In this document: positions 22,156-35,822 of the stretch, piece by piece | Layout: each line of letters begins with the position of its first letter | How positions within the stretch are numbered: position 1 is the first letter of the stretch | From: Bartonella quintana | GTDB lineage: Bacteria > Pseudomonadota > Alphaproteobacteria > Rhizobiales > Rhizobiaceae | Length of the DNA: 64,000 nt | Reading direction: 5' to 3' | Assembly: GCF_009936175.1 (NCBI RefSeq) | Contig: NZ_AP019773.1 | Location: 868,001 to 932,000, forward strand | Notes under the pieces: model-generated | What the model saw: the letters and a program-made list of their open reading frames with translations, nothing else | Told to the model about the DNA's origin: nothing | Database searches by the model: none | Position numbers and translations under genes: made by a program

Positions 22156-25100
22156 ATGGCACGCAGAACCAAATTACAAACATTTGAAGTTGAAGTTGAA
22201 GAAGCGCTCACAAAAGCCATGAACTTTGACTTTGATGACGCGGCAATCGAAACAATATCATTCAATAATTCTGAAAATGTTGTTAATGTAGATGATTTGA
22301 TTCAAAAGATTGCAACAGCAGAAGAAGAAATTTTTGTTGAAAATGGTCATTCGATTCTTGCCTCGAATATTCATGATAACACTGTTGTTGATGAATCCGT
22401 AGTGGAACAGCTTTTTTCCCAAAAACCTACGGGTGAGCTTTCAGGTGGAACTGTTCATAATACAGTGTTATCTAGGCAACTTCTTCCTGCTAATGATGAT
22501 CTAACGACCCCTTTAAATTTTGAATTATTAAAGCAAAATTCTGTTTCTCGAATCTACTTGTGTACAACAGCGCTCAGTGCTCTATGGGCAGCAGGAGGTG
22601 CTTTTATTGCTCATAAGCTAGCGCCTGCTGGACTCAGTTCCTTATCCAATATTACTACTTTTTTCACATCATCAACTGGACTGGCTGTAACGGCAGGGAC
22701 AACAATTCCTATTCTTATGTCTTGGGGATTTGCTCAATTAATAAAACGTTCAAATGAATTGCACAATATTGCTGTCCTTATGACAAATGCTGCACAGCGC
22801 CTTAGTGAACCACAACATATATCTGAAAAACAAGCTGTTGCTATAGGAGAAACCATTCGTGAAGAAGTAGCAGCAATGAACGAGGGAATTGAACGTACCC
22901 TTGGACGTGCTGTTGAGCTTGAAGCTATTATACAAGGTGAAGTTCATAACCTAGAAAAAGCTTACGCTGAAAATGAATCGCGCATTCATACATTAATCAA
23001 AGAGTTGAGTAATGAACGCATAGCTATTTTAAATCATGCTGATCGCGTACAATCAAGAATTAAAGGAACACAAGAACAACTAAACGATGAATTTGGCTTG
23101 GTTACTTCCAAGATTGTAACTAATGTTGAAAAGCTTGCACAAACACTTTCGCAGACGTTACAAAAACAGGGGGAAGATCTTGTTGCAAAACTTTCCTACG
23201 TAGGCGATAGTGTAACAAATCAGCTTGCTGAAAAATTTAGCGAAACCACGAAACAGGTACAGCAAAAAAACACAGAATTTTTCCATGAATTAGGGAAAAA
23301 CTTTGATGATTTCTCAGAACGCTTTAATAATAATGAAAAGCAAATAGAAAAAATCTTTAATGAAACAGCTGCTAAAGCTGAAATGAATATTGCTAAAATT
23401 GCAACGCATATACAAACGGCAACAGATCAGACTCTGCACAGTATTGGAGAAAAATTTAAAATATTAGATGAAACCATTATTGATCGCAATAATCAATCTC
23501 TCCAGAATTTTGATGAAAAAATCATGCAGCTCGATGGGCAAGCAGACGAACTTTCTTCTAAATTTGATAACATAACTTCAAAAGCAATTGAAACCCTTGA
23601 AGACCGTTTAACAACTGTTGATCTTTCTCTTAAAAAACATAGTGATTCTATCATTGAATCCTTTATTGCTCGCAGTCAAACCCTAAAAGATAATGCTGAA
23701 AAGCTTGGTGATTTCTTAGACGGTTATGTCTTGAAAATTAATGCAAATCTCCAAGAAAGAACAACTGATATTACTGACGCGTTCACAAACGGACATGAAA
23801 TTATTCTTTCTGCAATCGACAAAAGCAAAGAAAGGTTGAGAGAAGAAATTCAACACGTCAATAGTGCAATTGTTGATATAGTACAAGAACGTTCACAGGA
23901 TTTTAAATTACAACTTTCTGATCAAAGAGCTCTGATGGCAAACATGCTCGATAACGAAAAGAATAAAATCGCTGATACATTAAAAAATCAAATTGATACC
24001 ATAGCCCAAAATACTTCAGATCTTAAAAAGGTTTTAGTTGATAATGTTCAAATCGTTGATCAACATGCTGAAAATCACGCTGCAAATATAGTTCAATGCA
24101 CAGAGAAACTACAAGAAGTCATCACGCAAAGCTGCAATACAACGAAAGATGCCTTAGAAGCGCAAGCTAGAAATATTGATATACGCGCTGATGCTCTGCG
24201 TGACTCTTTGGCTATTAATAGTTTTTCTCTTAATGAAGTTCTTGCAGATCAGGCGCACACACTCGAACAACGGATGGAAACAATCCATAATCTCATCGCA
24301 AAAAGTGATATACGTGTTGATGTTGCATTAAAGCAACAGATAGATTTAGTTGAGAACGCAATTGTTGCCAATAACAAGAATATTACGGAAACTGTTCAAG
24401 GACATATCAAAAATCTCGAAGGTCATACCGAAATTTTAAAGAATGTCCTTTCTCAATCCAATGGTAAATTCTTTGAATCCTTTGAAACACACCTGGAATC
24501 TTTCGATACAAATTTAGAAGTTCGTGCACATAAGATTTTTGAATGTGCAGCCATACTAGAAGAAAAATTATCCGAAAAATTTGACCAAGTACGTGAAACC
24601 ATCGAAGCGCAAACATCTGCTTTCGAAGAACGCTCTGATACATTACAAACATCTATCATCCTTAATAATGAACAAAGCCAAGCAATTCAACAAGCGCTGG
24701 AAACGAGCGTTGATAATATACGCATTACATTAGAAGATTCCGTTAATACAGTTACAGGCAACCTGCGCGATAAAATTATAAAAGCCTCTGATATTCTTTC
24801 TTCTACGGGTGAACAGATAGTTTCGTCTGTTGCCAATATCGCTGTAAAAACAGAAAATATTCTCTCGGAGTCTGGCAATCGTATTGTATCAAACGTTAAA
24901 CAAACAGTTTATGATACCAGTGAAAAAGTTCTTTCTGTTCTATCTGAACAGACAGCTCAGACTGTAGAATCCTTCACCACGGCGAGTCATAATGCACAAA
25001 CATTGTTGAATGAAACAATCCATACTTCAGCAACAGCAATTGAAGAAGTACTCAATGAGCGCTGCAATGTTCTTCATCATTCTATGCAGAACCTTAAAAA

Positions 25101-26718
25101 TAATCTAGGGTATCAGCTTTCTGACGTAAGTAATCATTTGGAAGAAGCAAGCAAGCAGACAGCTACTCAAATTTCCGGGCATGTTGAAAAGCTCACAGAG
25201 TTGACAAATTATTTAAATCAAGCTGCGCAGAACACAACTGAATCAATTAGTCACTTAACACAGCATATCAGTGAACAGCTCTCCCTCTCAACACAAGATG
25301 CTGAACAAAGAATTTATGCACAAAATGAGTCTTTAGTGAATAGCTTGACACAAACCAACTCTGAAACTCTTCAAACCGTAACTGCTATGAAAGAAGATCT
25401 TGTCAATAACATCTCCTCTATTCTTAAGCAGTTGAATCAATCAATTTACAGCTTCCACGAGAATAGTAATATTTTATTATCAACAGTTCAAAATATTGAT
25501 GGTCAGTTTAGCGAGACTGCGAATAATTTTTTCCGCAAAACCAATCAAGCGGCTGAGCATTTATCAGCCTCAAATCAAGCGCTCAATAACAATGTAGAAG
25601 TTTTACAAGGGCTTTCACAAAACATCTTTGAAAAGATTGGGCATATAACAAGCACTTTCGGTGAACATGCTAAAACTCTTTCTGAGACCATTCACATTCT
25701 TGAACAATCCGAAAATTCGTTGAGTACAACACTTGAGGAAAAACACAAAACGCTCTCTGCATTAAGTAGTGCTCTTGTTTCAAAATCTAATGAAATCAAT
25801 CAATTAATAGAACATTATGAAAATGTTCTCAGTTTGGCATTTGAACGCACTGACAAAAATACACGTAATTCCACACATTCTCTCCAACAATCACTTAATC
25901 AGCTTATTAATGAAGCTTCAACGCGTTTTTCAGGTGCAGCAGAAGATATACGTCGCTCAGCTGATGAAATTCGTTCAGAACTTTCAAAAATTAATAATGA
26001 TATTAATGAGAGTGTTCAAAATTTGCCAGAAAAGACAAAGGAAACAACGCAAACAATCCGTCATGCTCTGAATGAACAAATTACAGCATTAAAAGATTTG
26101 GTAAGCGTTACACAAAACAGTGATCAAAAGAGTGCAAAAGAACAGTTAATACTGACAACTTCCACATCATCAACGTTTAATAGGAGTGATAGTGCTTCCC
26201 CTGAAATTGTCAAGAAGATAGTACCACCTGAGCCTGTCTTGCAACAAAACCAAAGCAAAAAAAGGCAAAATAAATGGGTATCGAATCTCTTAGAAAGAGT
26301 TTCGCGTGAAGAAACCTTGTATGAGAAAATGCCTGATGATGCTGTTTTTGCACCAGTACAAACAAAACAGCGTCCTGTAAGCGGCTCTCTTAACGCATTA
26401 GCAGCTGGTATAGTACGATCCATTAACCACAATGCTGTCATCGACCTATGGGATCATTATCGGCGTGGCCAAAAAAACATCGTGATAGAACGTCTTTATA
26501 CCTTAAAGGGAAGAGCGATATTTGAAACGGTTAAGAAAAACTATATGGGCGATGTTCATTTTAAAAATTCCGTTAATCAGTATATTGCGGATTTTGAAAA
26601 ACTCTTACGCGATGTATCCCGTAGTTCTGGTTCTTCCAACTCAGTTCGAAAATATCTGATATCGGATACTGGAAAGGTCTACACTCTGCTTGCTCATGCA
26701 AGTGGCCGTATCAAATAG
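22156..26718 (+). CDS. Giant membrane-anchored coiled-coil protein, growth pole ring (GPR/RgsE)-like
   Basis: A 1520-residue protein with an acidic N terminus (1-125), two hydrophobic segments at about 131-153 and 172-195, and then more than 1100 residues of near-continuous helix with Ala, Gln, Asn, Glu and Ser-rich heptads and no globular break. A final domain (about 1385-1520) is more compositionally normal: SLNALAAGIVRSINHNAVID, LWDHYRRGQKN and a repeated-helix end. This layout matches the rhizobial apolipoprotein-like proteins GPR (Agrobacterium) and RgsE (Sinorhizobium), which form a ring at the growing pole. The assignment rests on architecture and lineage, not on alignment. Expected location: cytoplasmic coil tethered to the inner membrane. 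A perfect terminator follows 8 bases after the stop. Confidence 0.7.
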   Translation: MARRTKLQTFEVEVEEALTKAMNFDFDDAAIETISFNNSENVVNVDDLIQKIATAEEEIFVENGHSILASNIHDNTVVDESVVEQLFSQKPTGELSGGTVHNTVLSRQLLPANDDLTTPLNFELLKQNSVSRIYLCTTALSALWAAGGAFIAHKLAPAGLSSLSNITTFFTSSTGLAVTAGTTIPILMSWGFAQLIKRSNELHNIAVLMTNAAQRLSEPQHISEKQAVAIGETIREEVAAMNEGIERTLGRAVELEAIIQGEVHNLEKAYAENESRIHTLIKELSNERIAILNHADRVQSRIKGTQEQLNDEFGLVTSKIVTNVEKLAQTLSQTLQKQGEDLVAKLSYVGDSVTNQLAEKFSETTKQVQQKNTEFFHELGKNFDDFSERFNNNEKQIEKIFNETAAKAEMNIAKIATHIQTATDQTLHSIGEKFKILDETIIDRNNQSLQNFDEKIMQLDGQADELSSKFDNITSKAIETLEDRLTTVDLSLKKHSDSIIESFIARSQTLKDNAEKLGDFLDGYVLKINANLQERTTDITDAFTNGHEIILSAIDKSKERLREEIQHVNSAIVDIVQERSQDFKLQLSDQRALMANMLDNEKNKIADTLKNQIDTIAQNTSDLKKVLVDNVQIVDQHAENHAANIVQCTEKLQEVITQSCNTTKDALEAQARNIDIRADALRDSLAINSFSLNEVLADQAHTLEQRMETIHNLIAKSDIRVDVALKQQIDLVENAIVANNKNITETVQGHIKNLEGHTEILKNVLSQSNGKFFESFETHLESFDTNLEVRAHKIFECAAILEEKLSEKFDQVRETIEAQTSAFEERSDTLQTSIILNNEQSQAIQQALETSVDNIRITLEDSVNTVTGNLRDKIIKASDILSSTGEQIVSSVANIAVKTENILSESGNRIVSNVKQTVYDTSEKVLSVLSEQTAQTVESFTTASHNAQTLLNETIHTSATAIEEVLNERCNVLHHSMQNLKNNLGYQLSDVSNHLEEASKQTATQISGHVEKLTELTNYLNQAAQNTTESISHLTQHISEQLSLSTQDAEQRIYAQNESLVNSLTQTNSETLQTVTAMKEDLVNNISSILKQLNQSIYSFHENSNILLSTVQNIDGQFSETANNFFRKTNQAAEHLSASNQALNNNVEVLQGLSQNIFEKIGHITSTFGEHAKTLSETIHILEQSENSLSTTLEEKHKTLSALSSALVSKSNEINQLIEHYENVLSLAFERTDKNTRNSTHSLQQSLNQLINEASTRFSGAAEDIRRSADEIRSELSKINNDINESVQNLPEKTKETTQTIRHALNEQITALKDLVSVTQNSDQKSAKEQLILTTSTSSTFNRSDSASPEIVKKIVPPEPVLQQNQSKKRQNKWVSNLLERVSREETLYEKMPDDAVFAPVQTKQRPVSGSLNALAAGIVRSINHNAVIDLWDHYRRGQKNIVIERLYTLKGRAIFETVKKNYMGDVHFKNSVNQYIADFEKLLRDVSRSSGSSNSVRKYLISDTGKVYTLLAHASGRIK

Positions 26719-30192: not shown

Positions 30193-30477
30193 TTGCCCTC
30201 TACGTTTGATAAAGTTGCTGATATTATCGCAGAAATCAGTGAAATTGATCACAGCATGATCACACCTGAAAGTCATACAATTGACGATTTGGAAATTGAT
30301 AGCCTTGATTTTCTTGATATTGTTTTTGCTATTGACAAAGCCTTTGGAATTAAAGTTCCATTAGAACAATGGACTCAAGAAGTCAATGAAGGTGGAGTTG
30401 CAACTGAAGAATATTTTGTTCTTAAAAACCTTTGCGCAAAAATTGATGAACTCGTTACCCTAAAACAGGCTGGTTAA
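30193..30477 (+). CDS. acpXL: Acyl carrier protein AcpXL
   Basis: A 94-residue specialised acyl carrier protein for the 27-hydroxyoctacosanoate-type chain of rhizobial and Bartonella lipid A. The phosphopantetheine serine is Ser37 in [16 protein letters not shown]. It is longer than housekeeping AcpP and has the extended C terminus seen in AcpXL. The start is TTG at 30193, supported by AAGGA about seven bases upstream; no in-frame ATG gives a full protein. First gene of the acpXL-fabF2-fabF1-adh-lpxXL operon. Confidence 0.93.
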
Positions 30478-30487
30478 TTTTCTCACT

Positions 30488-31663
30488 ATGCTTGATCAAG
30501 CTGTATTTATCACTGGTATAGGACTCATAAGCTCTCTCGGTGAAGGGACTGCTCATCATTGGAATCTCTTGAATGATCCCACAGTCACACTAAATCTTGA
30601 TTGTTCAACTTTTTCTCCCTACACTGTCCATAAATTGCCGGAAGTTGACTGGAATTTACAAATTCCCAAAAGAAATGATCAACGGCAAATGGGAACGTGG
30701 CAACGCCTTGGTACTTACGCAGCTGGCCTTGCTCTTGATGACGCAGGTATGAAAAATAATGAACAATTAACATCGACAATGGATATGATCATTGCAGCAG
30801 GTGGAGGAGAACGTGATATTGTCGTTGACACACAGATTCTTTCCAAGGCACGCAGAGCAGCTGATCATGCTTCCATGTTAAATTCAATCCTTTCAACTGA
30901 ACTTCGTCCAACTTTGTTTTTAGCGCAACTTTCAAATCTTTTGGCTGGAAATATTTCAATTGTTCATAAAGTAACAGGATCTTCTCGTACCTTCATGGGA
31001 GAAGAAGGATGTGGACTTTCTGCTATTCAAATTGCTGCGGCTCGTATTCGATCAGGACAAAGTACACATGCGCTGGTTGGCAGCTCCTATAATGCACAAA
31101 GTTATGATATGTTATTGGCACATGAGCTTGGAGGCCTCTTAACACGCAGTGGATGGACACCGGTATGGGAGCGTAAAAATTGCCTTGGCGGTGGTGTCAT
31201 AACTGGTTCTGGTGGCATCTTTCTGGTCCTTGAAAGCGAGGAACATGCAAGAAACCGTAATGCACGTGTTTATGCTGAAATTAAGCAAATCATCACGGAT
31301 CAAACAGACAGAATGAAAATTCCACTTAAAAAATCAATTGCAACGATGTTGAAAACAATAGAAGCTAAATCTGCCTTGGCTATTTCAGCTGCTTCAGGAT
31401 TTCATGAAGTAACAGAAGCAGAACAAAATGCCCTTGATGATGCTGATATGTTTTACCGCGGGATTACAACATTATTTGGTTATATGCGCGAGGCGCAATT
31501 TCTTTTAGCACTTGCACTTTCTGCTATTACTGTTGAAAAAAAGCGCTGTTTTCCAGCGTTAAGTGCCCATGAAAAGCCTTTTTCTAAAGAAGTGCATGAA
31601 GCATTTGTTACGACTATTGGTATAAAAAGAGCTGAAGGTATAGTACGCCTCACTGCTGTTTAA
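30488..31663 (+). CDS. Beta-ketoacyl-ACP synthase-like protein FabF2XL, catalytic residues absent
   Basis: A 391-residue KAS II-fold protein placed 10 bases after acpXL. The nucleophile-elbow segment aligns GSSRTFMGEEGCGLSAIQIA with the FabF segment that contains TACTSG; the cysteine position holds Glu173. The first catalytic histidine (NAHGTS in FabF) aligns with ISAASGF and the second (TGHLTGAAG) with FGYMREAQF, so both are lost. This is the pattern of a chain-length-factor subunit, which partners an active synthase. The intact partner is the next gene. Role in very-long-chain elongation is inferred from the cluster. Confidence 0.85.
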   Translation: MLDQAVFITGIGLISSLGEGTAHHWNLLNDPTVTLNLDCSTFSPYTVHKLPEVDWNLQIPKRNDQRQMGTWQRLGTYAAGLALDDAGMKNNEQLTSTMDMIIAAGGGERDIVVDTQILSKARRAADHASMLNSILSTELRPTLFLAQLSNLLAGNISIVHKVTGSSRTFMGEEGCGLSAIQIAAARIRSGQSTHALVGSSYNAQSYDMLLAHELGGLLTRSGWTPVWERKNCLGGGVITGSGGIFLVLESEEHARNRNARVYAEIKQIITDQTDRMKIPLKKSIATMLKTIEAKSALAISAASGFHEVTEAEQNALDDADMFYRGITTLFGYMREAQFLLALALSAITVEKKRCFPALSAHEKPFSKEVHEAFVTTIGIKRAEGIVRLTAV

Positions 31664-31677
31664 AGGGGATTTCTACA

Positions 31678-32952
31678 GTGCAATATAACGATCATCTTGG
31701 ACGTCCGCTTGTAGCAATAACTGGCGCAGGAGTTGTAACATCACTAGGGCAAGGTAAACATGAAAATTGGCAGAAATTAACAAACGGTGTTAGTGGCATC
31801 CATAAAATAACGCGCTTTCCCGTTGAAGGGTTAAAGACACAGATTGCTGGAACAATTGATTTTCTCAAAGAAAGCACGCTTGGTGCTTCAGCTCTCTCTG
31901 AAAAACTTGCTGATCTTGCAGCAGAGGAAGCTCTAGCGCAAGCAGTTTTTGATAAAAAGAATTTTAATGGGCCATTATTTTTAGCTGCTCCTCCTGTTGA
32001 GCTTGAGTGGAACGCGCGTTTTACTCTTGACCAAGAGGGAGTATTAAATGATGTACCTTCCTATAAACATCTTCTTGAAGTTTGCAGCCATCAACTTCAT
32101 GAGACGCTGTTTGAAACAACACAATTTGGTGCAATTGCAGCAAAGCTTCAAGAAAAATTTGGAACAAAGGGGCTTCCCGTTACGCTTTCAACCGCTTGCG
32201 CATCTGGTGCAACAGCGATTCAATTAGGTGTTGAATCTATTCAACGAGGAGAGACAGATCGCGCTCTCACAATTGCAACAGATGGTTCAGTTTCAGCAGA
32301 ATCCCTTATTCGCTTTTCGTTATTATCTGCTCTTTCAACCCACAATGATCCTGCAGAAAAAGCAGCAAAACCCTTTAGCCGTGACCGCGATGGGTTTGTT
32401 ATGGCAGAAGGATCAGGTGCTCTTGTCCTTGAATCTCTTAAAAGCGCATTAGAACGTAATGCGACAATTTTGGGAATTTTGGCTGGATGCGGTGAAACAG
32501 CAGATGATTTTCACCGTACACGTTCAAAGCCCGATGCATCACCTGCAATTGAAGCAGTTCGCAAAGCCTTGGATGATGCTCAAATAACCATAAATGAGAT
32601 CGATTATATTAATGCCCATGGAACTTCAACACCTGAAAATGAAAAGATGGAGCATCTCGCATTATCAACAGTTTTTGGCGACGTTTTAGAACACATTCCA
32701 GTATCTTCCAATAAATCAATGATTGGTCACACATTAACTGCTGCCGGTGCCATAGAGGCTGTCTTTTCACTGTTAACCATTCAATCGGGAATAATCCCCC
32801 CTACAATCAATTACAATGATCCTGATCCTGCTATCCCTTTAGACGTCGTTCCTAATCATAGCCGCAAAGCCCGTGTCAATGCGGTTTTGTCAAACTCATT
32901 TGGATTCGGCGGACAGAATACTAGTCTTGTTATTACAGCATATAAAGGATAA
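31678..32952 (+). CDS. Beta-ketoacyl-ACP synthase FabF1XL
   Basis: A 424-residue KAS II enzyme with a complete triad: Cys174 in LSTACASGATAIQLG, His in YINAHGTSTPENE, and His in SMIGHTLTAAGAIEAV. The C-terminal glycine-rich NSFGFGGQNTSLV is intact. The start is GTG at 31678 with AAGGGG nine bases upstream. It lies 14 bases after fabF2XL. Proposed to elongate the acyl chain carried by AcpXL. An insert near residues 60-165 is larger than in the housekeeping FabF. Confidence 0.92.
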   Translation: MQYNDHLGRPLVAITGAGVVTSLGQGKHENWQKLTNGVSGIHKITRFPVEGLKTQIAGTIDFLKESTLGASALSEKLADLAAEEALAQAVFDKKNFNGPLFLAAPPVELEWNARFTLDQEGVLNDVPSYKHLLEVCSHQLHETLFETTQFGAIAAKLQEKFGTKGLPVTLSTACASGATAIQLGVESIQRGETDRALTIATDGSVSAESLIRFSLLSALSTHNDPAEKAAKPFSRDRDGFVMAEGSGALVLESLKSALERNATILGILAGCGETADDFHRTRSKPDASPAIEAVRKALDDAQITINEIDYINAHGTSTPENEKMEHLALSTVFGDVLEHIPVSSNKSMIGHTLTAAGAIEAVFSLLTIQSGIIPPTINYNDPDPAIPLDVVPNHSRKARVNAVLSNSFGFGGQNTSLVITAYKG

Positions 32953-33018
32953 TCCTTTTATAACAACCAAACTTTGTAATACTTAACCTAATAACATAAC
33001 ATATTAAGGGGGATGATA

Positions 33019-34047
33019 ATGCGTGCACTGCAATTATTTGATGAGCGCCGGCTTGAAATCACTCATATTGCCCCGCCACCACCACCCGGCCCCAATGAAG
33101 TAACAGTGCGTATAAAAGCTGTTGCTCTTAATCATATTGATGTATGGGGATGGCGGGGTATGGCCTTTGCTAAAAGAAAAATGCCACTCATAATTGGTGC
33201 AGAAGCTTCTGGTGAAGTTGTTCAATTAGGGGATAATGTTGAAAATTTACAACTTGAGCAAATCGTTTCAATTTATGGTGCACACACCTGTGGAGTATGC
33301 AAAGCCTGCCATGAAGGACGTGATAATCTTTGCAGTCATGTAAAAGGCATCTACGGTTTTCATCTTGACGGCTTTGCCTGCGAGTTTGTAAATTTACCAG
33401 CGCGTCTATTAGTTCCCGCTCCTGCGAAATGTAATGAACTGCAAGCAGCTGTTGCTCCAATTACTTTTGGCACGGTAGAGCATATGCTTTTCGATAACGC
33501 AAAACTACAAGCAGAAGAAACAATTCTGATACAGGCAGGTGGTTCTGGTATAGGTTCAGCGGCCATTCAACTGGCAAAACATATGAGCTGTACAGTTATC
33601 ACAACTGTCGGTTCAGATGAAAAAATTGCAAAAGCAAAATCTCTTGGAGCGGATTACGTTATTAATTACTGTAAAGATCGTTTTGAAGGTGTCGTACGTA
33701 AACTAACCAAAAAACAAGGTGTTGATGTTGTTTTTGAGCATGTAGGAGCCAATACATGGAACGGTTCTCTGTTGTGTATGAAACGAGGAGCGCGCTTAGT
33801 AACATGTGGTTCTACCTCTGGAGTTACAGCACCACTAAATCTCATGCAGTTGTTCCAACAACAATTTAAGATATTTGGTTCTTTTGGCTGCCGTGTAAAA
33901 AATATGCAAAACGCCATGCAGAAAATGGCACAAGGAGTTGTACACCCTGTCATTGATACAATTGTTCAATTTGAAGAAATTGATACAGCCTTAAAACGAA
34001 TGGAAAGCCGTAATGTTTTTGGTAAAATTATTCTTAAAATGGATTAA
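33019..34047 (+). CDS. Zinc-type alcohol dehydrogenase family protein of the lipid A VLCFA cluster
   Basis: A 342-residue medium-chain dehydrogenase/reductase. The structural zinc motif is visible in GAHTCGVCKACHEGRDNLC, and the NADP-binding fold in ILIQAGGSGIGSAAIQLA. An ATG at 33013 directly abuts the AAGGGGG ribosome site, while the ATG at 33019 is six bases from it, so 33019 is the better start. In rhizobia the equivalent gene (adh2XL) lies between fabF1XL and lpxXL; its exact step in VLCFA synthesis is unproven. Confidence 0.88.
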   Translation: MRALQLFDERRLEITHIAPPPPPGPNEVTVRIKAVALNHIDVWGWRGMAFAKRKMPLIIGAEASGEVVQLGDNVENLQLEQIVSIYGAHTCGVCKACHEGRDNLCSHVKGIYGFHLDGFACEFVNLPARLLVPAPAKCNELQAAVAPITFGTVEHMLFDNAKLQAEETILIQAGGSGIGSAAIQLAKHMSCTVITTVGSDEKIAKAKSLGADYVINYCKDRFEGVVRKLTKKQGVDVVFEHVGANTWNGSLLCMKRGARLVTCGSTSGVTAPLNLMQLFQQQFKIFGSFGCRVKNMQNAMQKMAQGVVHPVIDTIVQFEEIDTALKRMESRNVFGKIILKMD

Positions 34048-34053
34048 ATCATA

Positions 34054-34983
34054 ATGAAGTTTTATATTAAAATTTTTATGTATCACATTAAAATCATAGC
34101 TAAAAATTCATTTTATTGGTTATGGGCACATCTGCTCATCAGCGCTTTATTCATTTTAAAACATTTTCCTGCTTATATCGGATTTTCTTTTTTTTCTTGG
34201 TTTGCAAAAACATTCGGTCCCCTTTTCTCTCGTCATCAAATCGCACTTACGAACCTTAGAGCAGCATATCCAGAAAAAACAGAAAAAGAACTCCATGCAA
34301 TTGCAATAGAAATGTGGGAGAATATAGGGCTGTGCTTAGCTGAATATATTTTTCTTGATAAAATTTTTGACTTTGATCCTCGTGCAGAGAAGCCAGGTCT
34401 TATTGAGGTTAAAGGCGCTGAAATATTTGAGAGATTAAAAAATGAAAAAAAACCGCACATTTTTTTCACAGCCCATACCGGAAACTTCGAACTTCTCCCT
34501 ATATGCGCACAAAGTTTTGATGTAAATGTTACAGTATTATTTAGATCACCCAATAATCCCTATATTGCAAAACGCATCCTTAAAGCTCGACAAGCTTTAA
34601 TGGGACATCTCGTCCCATCCAAAGCTGGTGCAGCTTGGGCATTGGCCACTAAGTTAGCAGAAGGTGAAAATGTTGGCATGCTTGTTGATCAAAAATTTCG
34701 CCGAGGTGTTTTGGGAACATTTTTCAACAGACCACTTAAAACAAACCCCTTAATTATAAAACTTGCACGACAATATGATTGTGATATTTATCCAGCGCGC
34801 AGCATCCGTTTAGCTAAAGGACGCCATCGTTTAGAGTTGTATGAACGTATAAAGCTTCCACTTGATGAAAAAAATGAAATTGATATAGCTGCTTCCACGC
34901 AAAAATTAAATGATATTGTTGAAAGTTGGGTACGTGAATATCCAGGGCAATGGATGTGGTTACACAGACGTTGGGATAGCTAA
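34054..34983 (+). CDS. lpxXL: Lipid A very-long-chain acyltransferase LpxXL
   Basis: A 309-residue LpxL/HtrB-family acyltransferase of the inner membrane that transfers the very long acyl chain from AcpXL to lipid A. The HX4-acid motif is visible in FTAHTGNFELLPIC. A hydrophobic N-terminal anchor spans about residues 18-45, and VGMLVDQKFRRGVLGTFFNR corresponds to the second conserved block. It starts 6 bases after the adh stop. Assignment to LpxXL rather than LpxL comes from the acpXL cluster. A broken mazG follows 31 bases later. Confidence 0.9.
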   Translation: MKFYIKIFMYHIKIIAKNSFYWLWAHLLISALFILKHFPAYIGFSFFSWFAKTFGPLFSRHQIALTNLRAAYPEKTEKELHAIAIEMWENIGLCLAEYIFLDKIFDFDPRAEKPGLIEVKGAEIFERLKNEKKPHIFFTAHTGNFELLPICAQSFDVNVTVLFRSPNNPYIAKRILKARQALMGHLVPSKAGAAWALATKLAEGENVGMLVDQKFRRGVLGTFFNRPLKTNPLIIKLARQYDCDIYPARSIRLAKGRHRLELYERIKLPLDEKNEIDIAASTQKLNDIVESWVREYPGQWMWLHRRWDS

Positions 34984-35014
34984 CCCATTCATCTCGTTTG
35001 CAGAGGAGCTAAAA

Positions 35015-35822
35015 ATGTTAGCGTCAAAAGATATCAAAGATCTTACCGCAGTTGTTGCAGCATTACGAGATCGTGACGGCGATTATATCTGGAATATAAA
35101 CAAACTTTTGAATCCCTCATCCCTTATATGCTTGAAGAAGTTTACGAAGTTATCGATGCCATTGAACAGAAAAACCGACTGGATCTTTGCGATGAACTCG
35201 GTGAATTTCTTCTACAAGTGGTCTACCATGCTAGGATTGCACAAAAAGAAGGCAGCTTTGCTTTTGATGATGTTGTTTATGCGATTACGGAAAAAATGAT
35301 TCGTCGCCACCCTCACATTTTTGTGGCAATGCAGAGCAAAAAACGTGGTTTTTTAGAAGATAAATGGGAGCGTATAAAAAATAGAACAAGCTGAACAAAA
35401 AAATACTCCGAAGAAGTAAGCTTACTAACCAATTCTGCAATAAACACTCTTGCAAAAGTGAAAAAGATTCAGCCAGCAAATGATCAGGAAGCGTTCGCTT
35501 GTTTTACAAAAAGAAACTGCTAAAGTGAGGGTTGATTGGCATGAAAGCCATAAAATCTTTGCAAAAATCGAAAAAGAACTTAATGAACTCAACGATGCAA
35601 TCAAAAATGACAAAACATCAGATATAGAAGAAGAATTGGGCAATCTCTACTTTACCCTATTTAATCTCGCACGTCATTTAAATATTGATTCACAAAAAGC
35701 ACTTAAAAAAACAAATACAAAATTCTGAAATTCATTTTACCTATAGTGAAGAAAGTATATCTGCTCAATCGAAAAAACTAGCTGACGCAATCCTTGAACG
35801 AAATGGAAATTCTTTGGAATAA
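35015..35822 (+). pseudogene. mazG: Broken nucleoside triphosphate pyrophosphohydrolase MazG
   Basis: Three reading frames together spell MazG. From ATG 35015 (site AGAGGAG) the frame gives LTAVVAALRDRDGDYIW. A shift near 35105 moves to MLEEVYEVIDAIEQKNRLD, DELGEFLLQVVYHARIAQK and KMIRRHPHIF. A stop at about 35392 and another shift lead to VRVDWHESHKIFAKIEKEL and DIEEELGNLYFTLFNLARH, and a last shift at about 35725 leads to ILERNGNSLE and the stop at 35820. Both MazG tandem helical halves are therefore present but disconnected. The protein would normally hydrolyse aberrant NTPs. Confidence 0.88.

Follow-up and report, generated by a model that had tools for sequence, protein, structure and literature searches.

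In actinorhodin-type type II polyketide biosynthesis, chains are built by an obligate heterodimer of an active ketosynthase (KS) and a second KS without catalytic residues, the chain length factor (CLF), which is described in the available sections of the reports as holding the growing chain and determining the size of the product (PMC7138838; PMC12664062). A KS/CLF pair of this kind, ApeO-ApeC, also serves a reducing, fatty-acid-like pathway in the aryl polyene synthesis of Gram-negative bacteria; according to the excerpts considered of that study, the second thiolase domain is nearly gone in ApeC, a half-size CLF, and the canal of the homodimeric synthase ApeR crosses the dimer (PMC8358021). 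Here, we describe fabF2XL, a gene of the lipid A very-long-chain cluster, in a stretch of 64,000 nucleotides of the Bartonella quintana genome (NCBI RefSeq assembly GCF_009936175.1, contig NZ_AP019773.1, positions 868,001 to 932,000 of the forward strand; hereafter the window, to which all coordinates refer unless a locus is named). The gene (30488..31663, + strand) encodes a ketosynthase-like protein without the catalytic residues. FabF2XL is probably a pseudo-ketosynthase that performs no condensation chemistry and acts as the CLF-like obligate partner subunit of FabF1XL, the product of the following gene.

The fabF2XL open reading frame (ORF) runs from ATG to a stop codon, encodes 391 amino acids and contains no internal stops, in line with an initial annotation of this DNA that had considered the frame intact. 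The protein belongs to the FabF2XL family NF005084/PRK06519.1 of NCBIfam (599 bits against a cut-off of 320). It was recognized by the Pfam N-terminal ketoacyl-synthase model at 51 bits, whereas no match to the C-terminal model was found at E-values up to 0.01; FabF1XL matched both models. Residue positions were established by alignment with the FabF and FabB proteins of the same genome. Glu173 (codon 31004..31006) aligned with the catalytic Cys and Tyr332 (31481..31483) with the second catalytic His, while the place of the first His was occupied by Ala301 or Ala302 (31388..31393), since two alignments differed by one residue and gave Ala either way. These assignments bear out the three substitutions, Glu, Ala, and Tyr, proposed in the initial annotation. 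Thus, in place of the Cys-His-His triad, Lys, and GFGG gate of an active FabF, the protein has Glu173, Ala301/302, and Tyr332, with neither the Lys nor GFGG.

The alignment of the family comprised 154 rows, namely the window and 153 loci, and is biased to Bartonella and Mesorhizobium by sampling; because one row (L023) stops at a contig end before the C-terminal half, 153 rows were readable for the His, Lys, and gate positions. FabF2XL was at least 360 amino acids long in 153 of the 154 rows, the remaining one being truncated by a contig end. The place of the Cys was acidic in every row (Glu in 151, Asp in three) and lay in an MGEE or MGED motif found in all 154. Among 31 members, 43 columns were invariant, E172 and E173 included, and the substitution at Glu173 is therefore not due to chance. 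The first His and the catalytic Lys did not occur in any of the 153 readable rows. The same was true of the GFGG gating loop, a loss not mentioned in the initial annotation, which was present in all 149 readable rows of FabF1XL; the gate column contained Phe in four FabF2XL rows, yet without the GFGG motif. At the second-His column, we found His in 106 rows, Tyr in 41, Gln in three, Thr in two, and Asn in one. Forty of the Tyr rows were from Bartonella and one was a Phyllobacteriaceae metagenome-assembled genome (MAG; L170), and six Bartonella rows (L091, L092, L104–L107) retained the His. Since His is kept in 106/153 rows, the loss at this column is a lineage trait. The claim that all three residues have been lost thus applies to 40 of the 46 Bartonella rows, as it does to the window protein, but not to the family as a whole; the loss of the Cys and the first His held in every readable row when FabF2XL proteins were aligned with FabF and CLFs. 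Both of these losses also extended over the 18 genomes of a 385-genome class sample that scored above the cut-off, 15 of them from outside the order (for L023, only the Cys place was readable). Column 175 contained Ala in 89 rows, Ser in 55, Cys in eight, and Gly in two, so that Cys175, named in the initial annotation as the possible alternative nucleophile, was rejected as a hidden one. As a separate observation, the only three rows with Asp at the former Cys place (L117, L122, L123) were all from Chelativorans.

The neighboring fabF1XL (31678..32952, + strand; GTG start; NF005076, 773 bits against a cut-off of 629) encodes a ketosynthase with Cys-His-Lys-His, and the Cys was retained in 150 of 150 FabF1XL rows and His-Lys-His in all 149 readable ones, which agrees with the earlier description of the next gene as a complete synthase. 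In 153 of the 154 FabF2XL loci, fabF1XL was the next gene downstream and had the same orientation, at distances of −25 to 173 bp where measured; in three of these 153 loci the contig ends within fabF1XL, and in the remaining locus (L023) it ends before the gene. As the loci had been found through FabF2XL, the reverse was tested using FabF1XL's own family. In the order sample of 130 genomes, an identical set of 32 genomes was positive for both proteins, and in the Bartonella genus sample of 41 genomes FabF2XL was detected in 40 and FabF1XL in 39; in one genome of this survey (G527), FabF2XL lies about 400 bases from the contig end.

One genome of the genus sample (G539) possessed neither gene. 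It carried an acpXL fragment interrupted by stops, adjacent to a partial match to lpxXL (L195:8103-8872). The three genes expected between these remnants gave no hits in a tblastn search (E 1e-3) of the surrounding 14 kb, and the very-long-chain pathway has apparently been lost naturally in this genome. Conversely, three genomes of another genus (g290) contained a second acpXL-fabF2XL-fabF1XL set (L184:1159-4474, L185:1302-4377, and L186:9410-12783), approximately 5–6 kb from the first set. In these second FabF2XL copies the GEE motif was kept and the C-terminal half was degenerate: one copy was a 329-aa frame with a shorter C-terminal half, and one was split across two frames.

The ratio of nonsynonymous to synonymous substitution rates (dN/dS) was 0.11–0.18 for FabF2XL and 0.09–0.13 for FabF1XL (eight Bartonella comparisons each), and FabF2XL is thus under purifying selection. 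The two halves of the proteins were compared in 57 paired representatives (FabF2XL below 80% identity), with FabF2XL split at residue 253. The mean pairwise identity of FabF2XL was 0.581 in the N-terminal half and 0.372 in the C-terminal half, and that of FabF1XL was 0.588 and 0.672, respectively. The His-bearing half is therefore the better conserved one in FabF1XL and the relaxed one in FabF2XL. Conservation of FabF2XL peaked at residues 136–165 (codons 30893..30982, + strand), with values of 0.89 and 0.91 against a family mean of 0.64 in 60 representatives. We take the equivalent stretch of FabF to lie at the dimer interface and to provide the residue that closes the acyl pocket of the partner. 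In a model of the FabF2XL monomer (predicted local distance difference test, pLDDT, 90.1; predicted template modeling score, pTM, 0.90), the weakest blocks were 101–120 and 131–150, which flank or fall within this stretch, the lowest being 131–140 and 141–150. Low confidence at this place is what would be expected if a dimer partner were needed, and we regard it as suggestive only.

Comparison with type II polyketide KS/CLF systems demonstrated several common features. In both, a live KS adjoins a dead KS-like protein in an operon, with the Cys replaced next to an intact KS (Glu/Asp in 154/154 FabF2XL rows, Cys in 150/150 FabF1XL rows), and the motifs at the Cys place are SEQAGGLDA in two CLF rows and GEEAAGVDA in FabF2XL rows. 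In the three CLFs aligned, Gln replaces the Cys, the two His are Asp and Arg, and GFGG is absent, i.e., the losses are similar to those of FabF2XL. However, Gln occupies the Cys place in all three CLFs and in none of the FabF2XL rows, the CLFs retain the Lys that FabF2XL lacks, and FabF2XL belongs to a system that makes saturated lipid A chains. The gene order also differs, being dead-then-live for fabF2XL-fabF1XL and live-then-dead in seven CLF loci, in two of which (L174 and L176) the CLF was assigned by its position and Gln and not by annotation. Moreover, FabF2XL is much less similar to FabF (76 bits) than the three CLFs are (248–286 bits). A profile search of solved structures gave FabF chains as the top matches, with the actinorhodin KS/CLF chains 1tqy_A and 1tqy_B lower. 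FabF is thus the best sequence match of known structure, and FabF1XL, with its catalytic residues complete, falls within this wider group, whereas FabF2XL is without the Cys, first His, Lys, and GFGG gate of FabF.

The phylogenetic trees, which were built without ApeC, depended on the active-site columns. With these columns included, FabF2XL was placed beside the three CLFs (support 88/92). When they were removed and seven CLFs were used, the CLFs grouped with their own KS (96/90), apart from FabF2XL, which joined FabF1XL weakly (75/75); a grouping of FabF2XL with the CLFs was not rejected by the approximately unbiased (AU) test (p 0.459). Because the placement shifts with the active-site columns and long branches are involved, we make no claim on the origin of FabF2XL. 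On this evidence, FabF2XL appears to work like a CLF. The initial proposal of a KS/CLF-like pair, which may set a length of C26–C28, is accordingly kept as the best fit to the losses, the pairing, the conservation, and the published mutant, but not as a statement of descent from polyketide CLFs.

The ApeO-ApeC pair offers a parallel in a reducing pathway. Like ApeC, one second-copy FabF2XL of the g290 genomes (329 aa) is without part of the C-terminal half; unlike ApeC, FabF2XL of the window has 391 aa, and every row of the family not cut by a contig end has at least 360 aa. Since the canal of ApeR crosses its dimer, a tunnel through a dimer interface is feasible.

Functional data on FabF2XL have been published for Agrobacterium fabrum. 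In the portions available of that work, the very long chain was completely missing from the lipid A of a fabF2XL insertion mutant and was partly restored by plasmid-borne fabF2XL alone (PMC11901934). Polar effects aside, this mutant implies that a protein without the condensing machinery is needed for elongation despite the intact synthase encoded next to it. In Bradyrhizobium ORS278, disruption of fabF1XL or fabF2XL is described as unsuccessful in the section considered (PMC5613085), and the lipid A of Bartonella henselae is stated to bear 28:0(27-OH) in the part available (PMC3361297). In the two papers that name the products of the cluster in the passages available, both fabF genes are presented as condensing enzymes. 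A search of the open-access literature, with older subscription work on rhizobial fabF mutants outside its scope, gave no report of a FabF2XL heterodimer, nothing that connects a chain length factor with acyl carrier proteins and lipid A in rhizobia, and nothing on RpAcpXL, and the one paper that linked chain length factors to ketosynthases and very long-chain fatty acids concerned polyketides; in the parts available of the papers found, there was no account of how the length of the very long lipid A chain is set.

Taken as the CLF-like partner of FabF1XL, FabF2XL best fits the residue losses, the pairing, the co-loss, the co-duplication, the conservation pattern, and the published mutant, and from these we infer the physical heterodimer, the path of the tunnel, and the control of chain length. 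FabF1XL would give the single working Cys-His-His site. FabF2XL would complete the dimer, with an N-terminal domain that forms the interface and lines or closes the acyl tunnel. Since only one of the two active sites would be intact, the tail of the AcpXL-bound chain could cross the interface, so that chains longer than C18 would fit, and the length of C26–C30 would be set by the FabF1XL/FabF2XL pair and not by FabF1XL alone. A further, rather doubtful extension is that a KS/CLF-type heterodimer was invented a second time, in Alphaproteobacteria, for a saturated lipid A chain, with the dead site as a ruler. The old active site of FabF2XL might then be the blind end of the tunnel, which would start at FabF1XL and pass through the interface. 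The carboxylate fixed at the former Cys place might serve as the stop by which the (omega-1)-hydroxylated tail is read.

Several points weigh against a partnership of this kind. A polar effect of the A. fabrum insertion on fabF1XL is possible, and the mutant was only partly complemented. Two separate enzymes of the same pathway would likewise be expected to show strict pairing and co-loss. No natural fusion of FabF2XL and FabF1XL occurred in 156 loci, three of which are copies of the window's own locus, and no chain-length datum separates FabF2XL variants. In a mutual-information analysis of co-variation between the two proteins, four of the top 60 pairs fell in two interface segments against 2.1 expected, at an effective number of sequences (Neff) of 51, which is evidence neither for nor against contact. 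Finally, the former site is not freely eroding in every respect, since the second His persists in 106/153 rows and Phe in the gate column in 4/153.

The acidic residue at the Cys place, fixed in 154/154 rows within MGE[ED], and the one active-site His kept in most rows of the family could also indicate new chemistry, with FabF2XL as an independent homodimeric enzyme using the acidic residue as base or nucleophile, e.g., a KSQ-like malonyl-AcpXL decarboxylase priming the chain. We consider this unlikely. In decarboxylating ketosynthases, the GFGG gate is retained together with the first His and the Lys, and FabF2XL has lost all three. The KSQ type has Gln at the Cys place with both catalytic His present, whereas FabF2XL has Glu or Asp there and no first His in any readable row. 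Furthermore, the C-terminal half is less conserved than the N-terminal one (0.372 versus 0.581), part of it is missing from one second-copy FabF2XL, and most Bartonella rows have lost the second His, the gene nonetheless being kept. A non-catalytic scaffold or regulator of the cluster that brings AcpXL, FabF1XL, and LpxXL together, with neither a ketosynthase-type heterodimer nor length setting, has a similarly low probability. Pairing, co-loss, and co-duplication would suit any accessory protein bound to the pathway, but the best-conserved stretch, residues 136–165, presumably corresponds to the ketosynthase dimer interface and includes the region modeled with the least confidence in the lone chain, as would be expected if the usual dimer partner were needed there; both points are suggestive only.

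The family name supports a more conventional function: NCBIfam calls these proteins beta-ketoacyl-ACP synthases, and the section available of one paper uses 3-oxoacyl-ACP synthase II. However, a role as one more condensing enzyme of the ordinary, redundant kind, with the site at Cys175 or elsewhere, is very improbable given a Cys in only 8/154 rows at that column and the absence of the first His, Lys, and GFGG from the readable rows; nor do other synthases cover the phenotype of the A. fabrum mutant. The lost key residues and the more variable C-terminal half might even suggest a decaying gene. This was rejected, and its probability is close to nil, on the basis of the dN/dS values and of conservation, with 43 invariant columns among 31 members and the gene kept in 40 of the 41 genus-sample genomes.

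In rhizobia, Bartonella, and their relatives, lipid A is marked by very long acyl chains, which affect envelope stability and host recognition. If FabF2XL is indeed the dead partner of FabF1XL, the elongating unit is a heterodimer and chain length becomes a question of one interface. Assays of FabF1XL as a single enzyme would then presumably fail or not reach full length, and the KS/CLF principle would extend to ordinary lipid A synthesis.

The lipid A very-long-chain cluster spans 30193-34983 on the + strand in the order acpXL, fabF2XL, fabF1XL, adh2XL, and lpxXL. The acpXL gene (30193..30477; TTG start, 94 aa), for the acyl carrier protein of the very long chain, matched NF005079 at 178 bits (cut-off 83). 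It is separated by 10 bp from fabF2XL, which is followed by fabF1XL after 14 bp, and the packing is thus as tight as initially noted. Downstream are adh2XL (33013..34047, + strand), encoding a zinc-type alcohol dehydrogenase-like protein with PF08240 and PF00107, in a gene order that matches published clusters, and the lipid A acyltransferase gene lpxXL (34054..34983, + strand; NF005120, 480 bits, cut-off 273). The ketosynthase N-terminal family was matched four times in the genome of 1.589 Mb, twice within the cluster, and the FabA/FabZ family was matched twice, both times outside it.

No fabZXL is located between acpXL and fabF2XL (30478-30487), and its absence is normal for the Bartonella lineage. 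Among the 149 loci with a readable acpXL, the gap between the two genes was at most 259 bp, too short for fabZXL, in 112, which include Bartonella and Phyllobacteriaceae-type loci, a locus of the same order (L053), and a Brucellaceae MAG (L120). In the other 37 loci, the gap of 473–616 bp leaves space enough for a fabZXL, the gene itself not having been identified there. Mesorhizobium loti is described, in the part available, as being without fabZXL and using the housekeeping FabZ instead (PMC7663294).

Two further features of the window were noted. At 22156-26718 there is a 1520-aa ORF, which by eye is repetitive and coiled-coil-like. At 34910-35728, what resembles a single, possibly broken gene is divided among three short ORFs that differ in frame; from its motif, we take it to encode a MazG-type pyrophosphohydrolase.
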